Below are positions 25,706 to 31,250 of a stretch of DNA of 61,252 bases, one piece after another. Numbering within the stretch: position 1 is the first letter of the stretch; each line of letters opens with the position of its first letter. Under the pieces are notes generated by a model that saw nothing but the letters and a program-made list of their open reading frames with translations, was not told the DNA's origin and made no database searches. This DNA is from Verrucomicrobiota bacterium (GTDB taxonomy: Bacteria; Verrucomicrobiota; Verrucomicrobiia; Verrucomicrobiales; Akkermansiaceae): NCBI GenBank assembly GCA_004294095.1, contig RDZR01000035.1, positions 1 to 61,252 on the forward strand, written 5' to 3'. The translations under genes were made by a program, and so were the position numbers.

Positions 25706-25807
25706 GGTTGCGGATTTCAAGAGATGAGTGCTTTGTCGCTTTTCTCGATTTTCCCCCACCGGCAGGCTTTACAGCAGCCATCATTAAATCCCATCTTTCC
25801 CGCGCCC

Positions 25808-28800
25808 ATGACCGCTGCCGAAGTCCGCCATAGTTTTCTCGAATTTTTCCGCGAAAAACAACACACCATCGTGCCCTCCGCGTCGTTGCTGCCGCAATCG
25901 CCCGGGCTGCTATTTACCAATGCCGGCATGAATCCATTTGTGCCGTATTTTTTAGGAGTGGAAAAAGCGCCCTACGATCCACCACGCGCGGCGGATACCC
26001 AGAAATGCATTCGAGCCGGTGGTAAGCATAACGATCTGGAGGACGTCGGCTACGATACCTATCACCATACATTTTTTGAAATGTTAGGGAATTGGTCGTT
26101 TGGCAATTATTTCAAAAAAGAAGCCATCCAGTGGGCATGGGAACTCGTCGTCGAACGCTGGGGCCTGCCCGCCCACCGCCTCTACGCCTCGGTCTATGCG
26201 CCGAAAGAGGGCGATCCCGGAAATTTCGATCAAGAAGCCTACGACATCTGGGCCGAACTTTTTATTTCCAAAGGCTGCGATCCCGCCGTCCAAATCGTCC
26301 ACGGCAACGTCAAAGACAACTTCTGGATGATGGGCGAGACTGGTCCCTGCGGCCCATGCTCCGAACTTCACGTCGATCTGACACCGGAAGGCAATCCCGT
26401 CACCGGCCGCAATCTCGTCAATAACGACTCCGACCTTTGCATCGAGATCTGGAACCTCGTCTTCATTCAATACAACGCCGAGGCCGACGGCACTTTCCGC
26501 GAACTCCCCGCCAAACACGTCGATACCGGCATGGGTTTCGAGCGTGCCTGCTCGATCATCCAAGGCACCAAAGGCTTCACGGATTTTTCTAACAAGCCAT
26601 CCAACTACGCAACGGATGTCTTTATGCCGATTTTCTATCAGTTAGAAAAACTCAGCGGAAAAACTTACTCCAATATTTACCCGGCCCTTGGCGCCGACCG
26701 CTCCCTCTTCGATGAGGAAATGAAAACTGCGATCGCATTTCGTGTCATCGCTGATCACCTGCGGACCCTTAGTTTCTCGATTGCCGATGGCATCATGCCG
26801 GGCAACACCGGCCGCAACTACGTTCTCCGCCGTATTTTGCGACGCGCTGTTAGATACGGCCGCCAATTAGGTTTTTCCGGCGAAAAACCATTCTTCGGCG
26901 CGTTGGTGGAAACGCTCGTCAGCGAAATGGGCGAGGTATTTCCAGAGTTAAAAAACCGCCAAGACGTCGTCCGCCAAACGCTCGAGCAAGAGGAGGCGAG
27001 CTTTAATCAGACTCTTGATCGTGGGTTAAAGCGCTTCGAAGAAGCCCTGGGGAGGGCCGCCATCTTGGCGGTTGATTCCGGTGTCTCACCGGAATCTCTT
27101 CAGAACCTTGGGCAAGATGCCCAAGGCAGCCGCCGAGACGGCGGCGCTCCCCTCGCAGAAGGTGCGCGCTATTCAAAATCCCACAAGCTTCCCCACTTTG
27201 AGCGCCCTTGGGGAAAATACCTTCTCACAGTCACCACCCAAGACCGCAAGACTCTTTCTCCAGAAGCCCGCCAAATCACACTAGATGCGATCCAGCATTT
27301 CCATGGCTCCCGCTACATCTTATTCGCGGCCGTGGTCATGCCGGACCACTTCCACCTTCTGATAGAACCCCAGCCAAAAGAATATGATCCACTGGCAAAC
27401 CCAATTTTTTGGGAGCTCGCGGAACTCATGCATTCCATCAAATCTTTCACTGCGAAGGAAATCAACAAGCTCACCGGCACCACTGGAACAGTCTGGCAAA
27501 AGGATTATCATGATCGCCTCATCCGCAGCGATTCAGACCTTTGGGAAAAATTCGAATACATCATCACCAACCCCCAGCGAAAAGAACTCACCCAGAATGG
27601 TCCCTATCCCTACCTTTTCGCAAAAGGCTGGGAATCAGCAAATCTCGAAGATTTTCGCAAGGGGAGGGCCGCCATCTTGGCGGCTGATTCCGGTGTCTCG
27701 CCGGAATCTCTTCAGAACCTTGGGCAAGATGCCCAAGGTAGCCGCCGAGACGGCGGTGCTCCCCTTTCGGGAGACATCGCCTTCGAGCTCTATGATACCT
27801 TCGGCTTCCCCATCGACCTCACCGAACTCCTCTGCGCTGAGCGCGGCCTAACGGTGGATATTCCCCGCTTTGAAGCCCTCATGGAGCAACAACAACAACG
27901 CTCCCGCGCCGCCCAAAAAACCAACATCGTCCGCGCCCTCGACATTTCCACCGCTGCCGTCACCGAATTCCTCGGCTTCGACAACGACACCATCGATGCC
28001 ACCGTATTAGAAATCCACCCTCAAGAAGACACCCTCTTCATCATCACCGACAAGACCGTCTTTTACGCCGAAATGGGCGGCCAAGCCGGCGACATCGGCG
28101 CACTCAACGGCATCCCCGTCACCGGCGTCCAGCAAATCGGCAAAGCCCGCGCCCTCATCGTTTCTCAATCTGAAATTTCAAATTTCAAATCTCCAATCAC
28201 CGTCGGCGACAAAGTCACCCTCAGCATCGACGAAAAACGCCGCCGCCCCATCGAAGCCCACCACACCGCCACCCACCTCCTCCACTGGGCCCTTCACGAA
28301 GTCGTCTCCAAAGACGCCTCCCAACAAGGCTCTTCCGTCGATGAAAACCGCCTGCGCTTCGACTTCAACAGCGCCCCTCTCACCCTCGAGCAGCTCGCCG
28401 AGATGGAAGAAATGGTCAACGGTGCGATCAAACAAGGCCTCACCGTTTCATGGACCGAGGTCAAACACGCCGAAATCAAAGGCCGCGCCGACATCATGCA
28501 ATTCTTCGGCGATAAATACGGCGAGATCGTCCGCGTCGTGCAAATTGGTGGCCAAGCCAACCAACTCAACGGCCCGTCCCAAGAACTCTGCGGCGGCACG
28601 CACGTCCGCAACACCAGCGAGATCGGCCTGTTCAAAATCAAGTCCGAAGCTGCCATCGCCTCGGGAGTCCGCCGCATCGAAGCCGTCTGTGGCGATGCCG
28701 CATGGCTGCACTTGCGCGAAAATGTTGAAAAATGGGATCATGAACTCAAAGCCGCCAGCGCCAAACTTAAAGCCGCGAACGAAAAATTATCCGCGCTCGG

Positions 28801-29332
28801 CGAGGCCCCCATCATCGTCAACGAATTCCCACACATCATGGGTGCCATGCTCGTTGAACGCGCAGATATCTCCCAAATCAACGCCACCTTTGCCCACGGC
28901 GCAAAAACGCTTGAAGAAACCCAACAAGCCGCCATCGAGGCCGAGAAACGCATCAAAAAAATCCAGTCCGCCCAAGCCGCCTGCCTCGCAGACGAATCCC
29001 TCGCCGAACTGATTGCCCAAGGCAAACCCATCATCGTGAGTTTCGAGTCCGACGCCTCGCTCCTCCAAGAACTCCAAAACGGCCTGAAGAAAAAACAATT
29101 CGCCGGCCCCGCCCTCCTCATCGTGGACGACGGCGAAAAACTCCACCTCGCCACCCACTGCGGCCCAGACGCGCTCGCAGCCGGCCTCAAAGCCGGCGAC
29201 CTCCTCCGCGACCTCGCCGCCCTCGCCGGCGGCAAAGGCGGCGGCAAGCCAGATCAAGCAAGAGGTGCCGCGCCGGACCGAAGCAAGCTGGAGGAGTTGA
29301 AGACTTTGGCGGCGGAAAAGTTGCGAGCCTGA
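25808..29332 (+). CDS. alaS: Alanyl-tRNA synthetase with an in-frame RAYT/REP insertion
   Basis: 1174 residues from ATG 25808 (MTAAEVRHSFLEFF, the family N-terminus; a frame 28 codons longer exists but is not AlaRS-like). Family members are near 880-950 residues. The aminoacylation core is intact (LFTNAGMNPFVPYFLG, YHHTFFEMLGNWSFG, GPCGPCSELH, KHVDTGMGFERA, RRILRRAVRYG). The editing domain keeps its zinc ligands: HHTATH at 818-823 and CGGTH at 928-932. Residues about 415-653 are foreign: repeat, HUH transposase, repeat, all in the AlaRS frame. Removing 717 bases (27050-27766) joins ...RFEEAL to SGDIAFELYDTFGFP, the normal family sequence. The insertion lies in the helical tRNA-recognition region, outside the active sites. 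Confidence 0.95.
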   Translation: MTAAEVRHSFLEFFREKQHTIVPSASLLPQSPGLLFTNAGMNPFVPYFLGVEKAPYDPPRAADTQKCIRAGGKHNDLEDVGYDTYHHTFFEMLGNWSFGNYFKKEAIQWAWELVVERWGLPAHRLYASVYAPKEGDPGNFDQEAYDIWAELFISKGCDPAVQIVHGNVKDNFWMMGETGPCGPCSELHVDLTPEGNPVTGRNLVNNDSDLCIEIWNLVFIQYNAEADGTFRELPAKHVDTGMGFERACSIIQGTKGFTDFSNKPSNYATDVFMPIFYQLEKLSGKTYSNIYPALGADRSLFDEEMKTAIAFRVIADHLRTLSFSIADGIMPGNTGRNYVLRRILRRAVRYGRQLGFSGEKPFFGALVETLVSEMGEVFPELKNRQDVVRQTLEQEEASFNQTLDRGLKRFEEALGRAAILAVDSGVSPESLQNLGQDAQGSRRDGGAPLAEGARYSKSHKLPHFERPWGKYLLTVTTQDRKTLSPEARQITLDAIQHFHGSRYILFAAVVMPDHFHLLIEPQPKEYDPLANPIFWELAELMHSIKSFTAKEINKLTGTTGTVWQKDYHDRLIRSDSDLWEKFEYIITNPQRKELTQNGPYPYLFAKGWESANLEDFRKGRAAILAADSGVSPESLQNLGQDAQGSRRDGGAPLSGDIAFELYDTFGFPIDLTELLCAERGLTVDIPRFEALMEQQQQRSRAAQKTNIVRALDISTAAVTEFLGFDNDTIDATVLEIHPQEDTLFIITDKTVFYAEMGGQAGDIGALNGIPVTGVQQIGKARALIVSQSEISNFKSPITVGDKVTLSIDEKRRRPIEAHHTATHLLHWALHEVVSKDASQQGSSVDENRLRFDFNSAPLTLEQLAEMEEMVNGAIKQGLTVSWTEVKHAEIKGRADIMQFFGDKYGEIVRVVQIGGQANQLNGPSQELCGGTHVRNTSEIGLFKIKSEAAIASGVRRIEAVCGDAAWLHLRENVEKWDHELKAASAKLKAANEKLSALGEAPIIVNEFPHIMGAMLVERADISQINATFAHGAKTLEETQQAAIEAEKRIKKIQSAQAACLADESLAELIAQGKPIIVSFESDASLLQELQNGLKKKQFAGPALLIVDDGEKLHLATHCGPDALAAGLKAGDLLRDLAALAGGKGGGKPDQARGAAPDRSKLEELKTLAAEKLRA
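27049..27152 (+). repeat. 104-bp multi-hairpin REP-like repeat, left copy
   Basis: Bounded by GGGGAG...CTCCCC. Inside are four short palindromes: CCGCC-ATCTT-GGCGG, CCGGT-GTCTC-ACCGG, TTGGGC-AAGAT-GCCCAA and GCCGCC-GAGAC-GGCGGC. Loops 3 and 4 are the reverse complements of loops 1 and 2, while the stems differ. It encodes GRAAILAVDSGVSPESLQ and onward in the alaS frame. It differs from the right copy at four positions by eye. Confidence 0.92.
27661..27764 (+). repeat. 104-bp multi-hairpin REP-like repeat, right copy
   Basis: Same direction, same reading frame and about 96 percent identical to 27049-27152. The distance between copies is 612 bases, a multiple of three. One difference (CACCGG to CGCCGG) lies inside a stem and leaves a mismatch opposite G; the others lie between palindromes or at a stem edge. 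It is followed directly by TCGGGAGACATCGCC, where normal AlaRS sequence resumes. Confidence 0.92.
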
Positions 29333-29586: not shown

Positions 29587-30735
29587 ATGAACTCTTTTCC
29601 AGATAATCTGACACGAGTCCGCGAGCGTCTCGGCATGAGCCAGAAGGCGGCTGCGGAGCGCATGGGGATTTCATCCTCATTGGTCTCAAAATGGGAAAAA
29701 GGCGAACGAATTCCGGATGAAGCGCAGCTATGGGAACTGTCCCGAATTTACGGAGTGGACCCGGCATTTCTGCGGGAGGGTGCGCGGGCCGTGGCCTTCC
29801 AGCCTCGCAGTATGGCGGCAAAGAAAAGTCAGGAAAAACAAGGGCTTGGAAGCGCCCTCAACGACGCAGCAGCCCAGGTTCACTCGTTATATAGGGTTTG
29901 GGAACTGGCAGGCGAAATGCCTCAGCGTTTGTCGCTTTCTCTGGAATACTCAGAGCCTCGGCTTGAAGAATTGGCTGACATGGTGCGGCGGTTTCTACGG
30001 CTGAATGATCGCGTGACCTACACCGAGCTTTGCCAGGCGCTGGCGGAGAATCGCGTGCAGGTTTTCGAATGGAAACTGCCACCCAAGCTTTCCGGGTTAT
30101 CGCACCAACGTGACTTCAGCGTGATCTTCGTGAACCGGAACATGCCTGAGAAGGTGAAGCTGTTCACGCTTTGTCACGAGTTGGCGCATTTGCTTTTTCA
30201 CCTGCGCGGGGTTGAAGATACGGCGGTTTCCCTGATGGCGACGCGCAACGATCCGCAGGAGAAGGAAGCGAACCGCTTCGCCGCCGAACTTCTGATGCCG
30301 ATGTCCAAAGTGGAGGATCTTTTGCGACGGCAAGGTGCCAATTTGCGCACGAAGTCGGGTTTTTTCGCTGCAGTGGATCACTTCGGCGTTTCGCATGGGG
30401 CGATGTTTTACCGTCTGGTGCAGCGCAACGTCGTAAGCTATACGGAGAAGTCGCGGTTTTTCACAGAAGTGCAGCGTGAGGAGACGGAGTCCGAGGGAGC
30501 GCGGGTGAGCGAGGGGGATGATCACCCTTTCGGGGATCAAGTGCCTCCCCGGTTATTGGAGTTGACCACTGAACTCTGGTTAGCAGGTAAGGTGAGCATC
30601 GGCAAGGTAGCTGGCTGGTGCTCAGCCGGGCGTTCGACCGTGGAAAAATATCTATCGTCCGCGGCGGAAGATGGTGATGAGGCGGTGAATGATATCGATT
30701 TGGGCTATGCGGAAGTGGAGGGTCTGGCTCCTTGA
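29587..30735 (+). CDS. XRE-family regulator with ImmA/IrrE-type zinc peptidase domain
   Basis: 382 residues. An N-terminal helix-turn-helix (about 8-60, MSQKAAAERMGISSSLVSKW) is followed by a linker and a COG2856 peptidase domain with zinc motif HELAH at 197-201. EKEANRFAAELLMP supplies the downstream Glu. The C-terminal 100 residues include a second helical segment (GKVAGWCSAGRSTVEKYLSS). Such fusions are self-regulating repressors or antitoxins cleaved on stress. The next gene overlaps by four bases and encodes a PIN protein, so the pair resembles a type II toxin-antitoxin module. The surrounding 9 kb lacks the TGTTAGA word, which fits acquisition by transfer. Confidence 0.9.
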   Translation: MNSFPDNLTRVRERLGMSQKAAAERMGISSSLVSKWEKGERIPDEAQLWELSRIYGVDPAFLREGARAVAFQPRSMAAKKSQEKQGLGSALNDAAAQVHSLYRVWELAGEMPQRLSLSLEYSEPRLEELADMVRRFLRLNDRVTYTELCQALAENRVQVFEWKLPPKLSGLSHQRDFSVIFVNRNMPEKVKLFTLCHELAHLLFHLRGVEDTAVSLMATRNDPQEKEANRFAAELLMPMSKVEDLLRRQGANLRTKSGFFAAVDHFGVSHGAMFYRLVQRNVVSYTEKSRFFTEVQREETESEGARVSEGDDHPFGDQVPPRLLELTTELWLAGKVSIGKVAGWCSAGRSTVEKYLSSAAEDGDEAVNDIDLGYAEVEGLAP

Positions 30736-31250
30736 AAGTATCAAGTTCTCCTCTCGTTTGCGATGCTTCGGTCATCTTGAATTTTGGCCATCGCGGAGAA
30801 TTGTCAGCTCTGGTGATGGAGCTAGTGGGCGAGCGTGAACTGACGGTGACTCCGGAAGTGGTAAGAGAAGTTTCTCAAGATGATCCCGCCTATTACCGGG
30901 AGATTCTGAAAGATCATTTCAAGCTACACGAAAGACCTTTGGCGGCGATGAGTAAAATTCCTATGGAAGCTCGTGACAGCTTGGACCCTGGCGAGCTGAG
31001 CGTGCTAGCCGTGTGTCTCGAAACGGGCTGGACTGCTTGTATTGACGAGACGCTGGCGAGGAAAGTGGCATTGTCGATGAACATTCCACTCATCGGCACA
31101 CTTGGATTGCTAGGTCATGCAGTGAAGCAGAAATGGATGACAAATGACGACTGCTTGGCAGCTGTCCGTAGGTTAAAGCAGAACGGATTTTATTGTCCAA
31201 AGGTGCATCCTAACGACGACTTTTTCGAATATCTGGCGCGGATGAGATAG
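30732..31250 (+). CDS. PIN-domain protein, candidate toxin
   Basis: 172 residues starting at TTG 30732, overlapping the upstream stop (TTGA). PIN acidic residues are visible: LVCDASVILNFGHRG at the N-terminus, LDPGELSVLAVCLETG in the middle and ACIDETLARKVA, followed by IPLIGTLGLLGHAVK, the pattern of DUF3368-like PIN proteins. PIN toxins are Mg-dependent RNases. Tight coupling to the XRE-ImmA gene suggests this is the toxin and the upstream protein its antitoxin or repressor. The activity is inferred. Confidence 0.82.
   Translation: MKVSSSPLVCDASVILNFGHRGELSALVMELVGERELTVTPEVVREVSQDDPAYYREILKDHFKLHERPLAAMSKIPMEARDSLDPGELSVLAVCLETGWTACIDETLARKVALSMNIPLIGTLGLLGHAVKQKWMTNDDCLAAVRRLKQNGFYCPKVHPNDDFFEYLARMR

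Follow-up and report, generated by a model that had tools for sequence, protein, structure and literature searches.

The question raised by this locus is how a whole transposase can be carried inside an essential enzyme. In the window, by which we mean the entire 61,252-nucleotide stretch that we analysed, the alanyl-tRNA synthetase gene (alaS) is read without a break through a REP-associated tyrosine transposase (RAYT) and a REP repeat on either side of it. The window comes from a lake-dwelling Verrucomicrobiota genome (2,997,094 bases in 113 contigs, 96.96% complete). A preliminary description had presented the arrangement as a single unusual insertion. The nested unit is real, but it is not single; it recurs in the phylum, in several housekeeping hosts, and turns over rapidly.

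One uninterrupted open reading frame of 1202 aa (25724-29332, + strand) runs through the insert. The frame is open from the ATG at 25724, and the probable start of alaS is the ATG at 25808 (M29), where homologues begin, so that we place the gene at 25808-29332 (+). The predicted mass is 129.8 kDa from 25808 or 132.9 kDa from 25724, rather than the 127 kDa or so estimated before. The protein scored 752.8 bits with the NCBIfam alaS model TIGR00344 (cut-off 457.05), it also matched Pfam tRNA_SAD and DHHA1, and all five AlaRS motif stretches were present. Judged by its profiles, with an equivalog-level score and both editing and C-terminal domains, the gene would encode a functional synthetase.

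The nested element is 716 bp long, lies at 27049-27764 (+) in the alaS frame and ends in GGGGAG and CTCCCC. These ends correct the 717 bases (27050-27766) assigned to it earlier, and excision of those bases, which had been expected to restore AlaRS, leaves a loop somewhat shorter than that of the relatives' empty alleles. The left REP block (27049-27153, +) is palindromic, has a folding energy of -80.4 kcal/mol as RNA and encodes a linker; the right REP block (27661-27765, +) is a direct-repeat copy of it. Each copy is 105 nt, and the two are 96% identical and 612 nt apart. A 23-mer from the REP matched three times in the window at up to three mismatches, compared with 0.00 expected from 100 shuffles. 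Between the blocks lies the RAYT domain (27194-27610, +), with the codons of its HUH motif (H-F-H) at 27347-27355 (+) and the presumed catalytic tyrosine of Y-I-I-T-N-P at 27557-27559 (+), a motif that we compared with the parts of PMC6006769 consulted. NF047646 (REP_Tyr_transpos, cut-off 80) gave 84.5 bits for the whole protein, 88.2 for the insert alone and 89.2 in the genome search, and Pfam Y1_Tnp (cut-off 23) gave 20.5 bits for the whole protein and 24.4 for the insert. The insert thus combines a profile above cut-off, HUH and tyrosine in Y-x-x-x-N-P, and flanking palindromic REPs, and its HUH and tyrosine stand alongside intact AlaRS motifs.

Stop codons are absent from the insert in its own (alaS) frame and number 3-13 in each of the five other frames. 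The transposase therefore has no stop of its own, as had been noticed. It had also been said to have no start. The stretch that leads from the left end to the RAYT domain indeed lacks an in-frame ATG or GTG. It does contain a single in-frame TTG (27065-27067, +), the sole candidate of the three codons, and relatives mostly have GTG or TTG there. We considered whether the REP itself imposes the reading frame and rejected this, because the REP is open in two of the three forward frames.

It had been suggested that a second alaS might back up the interrupted one. The genome has only two PF01411 matches, and these are the two halves of the window gene, so that a back-up is rejected for this genome; no second alaS was found by this search, in which alaS was the one host whose copy number was examined. 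The insert DNA had just three weak matches elsewhere in the same genome (43-86 nt, 72-84%). An artefact of assembly had likewise been raised. Most of the genomes used here are metagenome-assembled, REPs are repetitive, and the identical tract shared by two genomes (see below) could reflect a shared assembly error. However, diverged sequences with an open frame show the same architecture in many assemblies, and a metH-RAYT is present in a single-contig genome (G004). A chimera is therefore rejected, and we give an artefact next to no credence.

The site of insertion is a loop in the tRNA-recognition region of AlaRS; on human AlaRS (4xem) it falls between residues 413 and 425. In an AlphaFold2 model of the 1174-aa chain, the RAYT (residues 471-590) reached 71-92 pLDDT per block, and the REP-encoded linkers (419-465 and 607-650) were below 50. 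With 34 sequences, the whole chain had a pTM of 0.44, and the AlaRS catalytic domain also fell below 50 in parts; the model is thus silent on how the synthetase tolerates the insert. The top Foldseek matches of the whole chain were AlaRS structures. Modelled alone, the RAYT reached a pTM of 0.74 and its top structural match was the RAYT-REP complex 4er8 (E 4.3e-7), with which the sequence profile agreed (E 8.1e-7). In four other AlaRS sequences (L135, L177, L186 and L197), the loop carries other, unrelated-looking inserts and measures 84-111 residues. One AlaRS (L139, BJFP01000274) has a RAYT and, further downstream, apparently a second REP-like peptide as well.

We then compared alaS among relatives. 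The genus comprised 73 genomes, 67 of which had an alaS match, and a RAYT was read in the window's loop in 19 (G000, G001, G005, G006, G008, G010, G011, G013, G328, G333, G334, G337, G338, G344, G353, G356, G362, G363 and G364). In 39 congeners, the two alaS halves lie at most 450 nt apart on one contig, which we score as empty by spacing alone, and nine were unscorable. The insert is therefore variable within the genus. The same loop holds RAYTs in other families, in other orders and in one other class. A RAYT was also read in 10 of 80 named records (the best 80 kept), one of them titled Kiritimatiellaeota; that scan used RAYT peptides among its patterns, and its yield is not a rate. Two types occur in the loop, type A, which is window-like, and type B, which is about 50% identical to the window's RAYT. 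In G005, a second, divergent AlaRS-like gene (G005:C28:8142-10358; 51% identity, N part) occurs in addition to the RAYT-bearing alaS and could be a paralogue or contamination.

The frame is maintained through the insert in 29 of 30 alaS rows. The exception is G010, where a 1-nt frameshift occurs at an A6 run inside the RAYT, close to a contig start; the stops seen in G008, G364 and G337 are upstream of the conserved start. Of the 30 loops, 25 have both the GGGGAG and the CTCCCC end. These data bear on the idea that no full fusion accumulates, either because RNA or protein loses the insert or because translation of the RAYT begins at an internal start of its own. The very stable REP hairpins would suit this idea, as would the in-frame ATG, GTG or TTG that precedes the RAYT in 28 of the 30 rows (26 are without an ATG). 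However, an intact frame would be unneeded if the insert were excised, and no intein, Hint or splicing family was found in the window protein among Pfam and NCBIfam matches to E 1. As the RAYT has no stop, translation from such a start would continue into AlaRS. We consider this alternative highly improbable.

Occupancy of the loop changes quickly. At least 20 changes are required on a tree built from AlaRS exons, in which 28 of the 125 rows have a RAYT, and close kin differ: G334 has type A, G356 has type B and G007 is empty. Between G334 and G356, the alaS exons are 95.8% and 94.4% identical in DNA and the loops 57.8%. The junctions shift by a few codons among species. Similar turnover was found in other hosts. 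In ispG, the N exons of G001 and G011 are 95.8% identical and their RAYTs 64.1%, and those of G001 and G013 are 93.8% identical and their RAYTs 99.3%. In metH, the exons of G015 and G017 are 84.0% and 87.5% identical, yet a 733-nt tract around the RAYT is identical; at above 74% identity, this element was found in no other of the 73 genomes, with at most eight candidates scored in each. RAYT lineages cluster largely by host site, and several lineages occur at each of leuS, ispG and metH. The same-site swaps and the 733-nt tract could reflect homing, but they are also expected from exchange of alleles by general recombination.

This turnover also bears on domestication, in which AlaRS and the other host enzymes would have taken the RAYT into functional use, for example for nucleic-acid binding. 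Purifying selection (see below) and the presence of RAYTs in several families are in keeping with such a role. The loop is empty in at least 39 congeners, however, different RAYTs occupy one site in close kin, the tree requires at least 20 changes and the host enzymes are unrelated to one another. Thus, we regard domestication as very unlikely.

RAYTs are nested in several other enzymes. Among 59 fetched RAYT loci, 43 were classed as nested in host frames; the 59 were selected with a bias to long frames, so that this is not a rate, and the RAYT list is complete for seven genomes. Both flanks matched one host seed at 32 of the 43 (leuS 6, metH 12, carB 3, ispG 10 and hsdR 1), five of these having themselves supplied host seeds, and three more had a single flank at a contig edge. 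The remaining eight were classed by reading or by Pfam: recG, a restriction enzyme, DUF5107 (twice), an adenosine-deaminase-like protein, two glycosyltransferases and a NUDIX-like protein. Profiles confirmed the host identity of LeuRS, HsdR, MetH, CarB, IspG, RecG, DUF5107 and a glycosyltransferase; valS and hypF are further hosts by reading only. The RAYT profile was less decisive in these hosts. NF047646 exceeded its cut-off of 80 in HsdR only (84.0) and gave 52-77 in the LeuRS, MetH, CarB, IspG, RecG and DUF5107 hosts, and Y1_Tnp passed its cut-off in six of eight scanned hosts, the RAYT of RecG being seen by NF047646 only. The RAYT in one glycosyltransferase (L109) was matched by neither profile at the thresholds used and thus rests on a protein match. 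In the window's own genome, four of seven RAYT matches are nested (alaS, leuS, metH and hsdR). We did not count as nested a 583-aa frame without a recognisable host (L092), as a long frame alone is no proof.

MetH has two sites. A query of MetH exons only matched in 66 of the 73 congeners, and 32 of the genes were uninterrupted. At one site, 22 have inserts of 639-816 nt and one has an insert of 210 nt; at a second site, three congeners have inserts of 666-702 nt, two of these being occupied at both. Of the 22 larger inserts, 20 proved on reading to contain RAYT sequence (no frame was found for G337 and G354). MetH of G353 carries two RAYTs, and that of G343 carries a RAYT remnant with an internal deletion in frame. 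Another in-frame insert in the G343 protein (L240, G343:C408:2500-8500) has a P-loop-like stretch and REP-like peptides and by eye resembles a zeta-toxin-type kinase.

The window's own RAYT belongs to a clade found in two hosts. We searched 288 genomes across the phylum with a profile of 11 alaS-type RAYTs, scoring at most 12 candidates per genome. Among the matches listed, seven exceeded 225 bits and the next had 93.5. All seven lie inside host frames, five in alaS (G000, G302, G103, G192 and G117, the last with only the C-terminal half of alaS in the locus) and two at one site in recG (G031, same order, and G203, same class; NCBIfam confirmed RecG for L093). No free-standing RAYT of this type was among the matches listed from these 288 genomes. 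The alaS-RAYT frame of G117 (L211, G117:C18), near the locus edge, starts with a low-complexity Lys/Pro-rich stretch and has no AlaRS N half.

The nested RAYTs are under purifying selection. Their dN/dS (NG86) was 0.058-0.310 in 16 of 20 pairs, and the other four pairs were saturated at synonymous sites. HUH and tyrosine are present at 43 of the 43 nested loci (two misses by regular expression were checked by hand). Among the alaS rows (n=30, 28 distinct), HUH is present in all 30, and the tyrosine is lost in one lineage (L129 and L275); two further rows that had been cut by the match show it when read further.

Type-B RAYTs are associated with REPs of their own kind. We counted type-B REPs at up to two mismatches; two copies are normally the element's own. 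Among the matches listed, genomes with a type-B alaS RAYT have 4-33 copies each. Four or more copies were found in 13 of 13 such genomes but in 3 of 45 others (6 with type A, 39 without a RAYT), which gives a Fisher p of 1.8e-10 when genomes are treated as independent of kinship; eight REP-bearing genomes among the matches listed could not be scored for alaS. REPIN-like arrangements occur in G001, where nine inverted pairs within 185 nt account for 18 of the 26 copies. The three others (G340, G018 and G016) have 4-16 type-B REPs although their alaS halves lie close together, possibly as orphan populations after loss of a nested RAYT or because the RAYT is elsewhere. For the window-type REP, a search of its own genome at up to two mismatches found no dispersed population. 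A looser pattern matched eight times there, three times in alaS and five times outside. A GGGGAG-footed inverted REP pair lies inside a 290-aa open frame of that genome (L041, G000:C36:38329-38413) and could be another in-frame REP.

These results are relevant to passive tolerance, in which RAYTs insert widely, the in-frame survivors in permissive loops are kept as misfolding would harm the host, and recurrence reflects few suitable loops and recombination. Several observations are in line with it: the sites are loops and not active sites (in alaS, human residues 413-425), the alaS loop also takes the unrelated inserts mentioned above, MetH of G343 holds another in-frame insert, and the junctions vary by a few codons. 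However, folding alone would not need HUH and tyrosine, which are retained throughout the 43 nested RAYTs. The grouping of RAYTs largely by host site, an alaS/recG clade found nowhere else among the matches listed, and type-B REPs that track type-B RAYTs also speak against passive tolerance. We therefore regard this explanation as unlikely. A tolerated domain within the protein, as suggested earlier, is possible. Yet the retained catalytic residues, the low dN/dS and the coincidence of type-B RAYTs with cognate REPs make that description seem too passive.

Based on these results, we propose a model in which the RAYT and its REPs form a mobile element that resides in an essential enzyme as an internal domain and is not spliced out, an explanation that we hold to be probably correct. 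Ribosomes would make one chain, consisting of the AlaRS N part, a REP-encoded linker, the RAYT, a second linker and the AlaRS C part, and both the AlaRS and the RAYT parts may be active. The essential host frame would supply expression of the RAYT and purge alleles with stops or frameshifts, and the RAYT would be kept under selection for a DNA-processing function. At least the type-B RAYT probably mobilises its cognate REPs elsewhere in the genome. The RAYT may move the element, and either homing-like transposition or exchange of alleles may bring it to the matching site in other species. A different RAYT could later take the place of a resident element, or the resident could erode, still in frame, to a short remnant like that in MetH of G343. 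Additionally, translation could begin within the insert, at TTG in the window gene and at GTG or TTG in most relatives, and add a shorter product of RAYT and AlaRS C part. Counting against the model are the G010 frameshift, the lost tyrosine, the window REP that is not dispersed, and the three REP-bearing genomes without an alaS RAYT. The possible origin of the same-site swaps in ordinary homologous recombination, the candidate internal starts and the poor model of the AlaRS catalytic domain weigh on the same side.

Inteins with homing endonucleases place a nuclease domain in frame in essential genes, at recurrent sites and with a patchy distribution. Nested RAYTs appear to share the in-frame nuclease domain, the recurrent sites, the patchiness and the occurrence of two sites in one gene (MetH), but they appear to differ in lacking any splicing domain that we could find, in their loop sites and in their REP hairpin ends. 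We rejected an intein identity for the insert, as no splicing family was matched in Pfam or NCBIfam. A bolder reading is that these elements form a spliceless, intein-like class, in which RAYT lineages (one of alaS/recG, plus carB-, leuS-, metH- and ispG-associated ones) live solely inside essential enzymes, are self-moved by HUH chemistry, use the gene as a shield and drive REPs in trans. We offer this joint reading tentatively, as it seems slightly more apt to be wrong than right.

RAYTs and in-frame REPs are already known (PMC8049555, PMC3733652; consulted in part). In the consulted parts of PMC8049555, RAYTs are described as single-copy, vertically inherited and domesticated, and insertion into a gene as destructive. 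The RAYT described here is not a free-standing, vertically inherited gene of that kind, as it is nested and turns over at the same site. Its likeness to the RAYT/TnpA-REP REPtrons and REPINs, as those are portrayed in the parts consulted of PMC8049555, PMC8266576 and PMC6006769, lies in HUH and tyrosine, NF047646, the 4er8 fold and the flanking REPs, and for REPINs in the dispersed inverted REP pairs of type B. Unlike REPtron RAYTs, as far as those sources describe them, the nested RAYT is in frame in a host enzyme, has no stop and is exchanged at the same site between species, and its REP foot is GGGGAG rather than GTAG. TIRYTs and their TIRtrons, which we compared by description only, also have a tyrosine transposase, and their ends share a GGGGWSAS motif close to GGGGAG; location in a host protein is absent from their description in the parts of PMC3733652 consulted. 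The same parts describe intragenic REPs and Rickettsia palindromic elements as palindromes translated in frame in housekeeping proteins, including in Opitutus. Those are 20-82 aa without a transposase, whereas here a whole RAYT domain lies inside.

We found no description of RAYTs nested in frame in host enzymes in the open-access literature searched. According to the parts of PMC6006769 consulted, a large survey took proteins that were longer than expected for fused genes or faulty annotation and dropped them, which suggests why nested RAYTs were overlooked. That transposases persist inside housekeeping proteins and turn over between species is contrary to the description of RAYTs in the consulted parts of PMC8049555. 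If our model is right, mobile DNA has one more way to persist. The nested elements would also mark natural positions at which essential enzymes accept inserts of roughly 210-270 residues, and would make it testable how essential genes can shelter selfish elements.

Last, 3' of alaS in the window (29587-31250), an XRE/metallopeptidase-like open reading frame with HELAHLLFH overlaps a second one, and by eye the two resemble a toxin-antitoxin pair.
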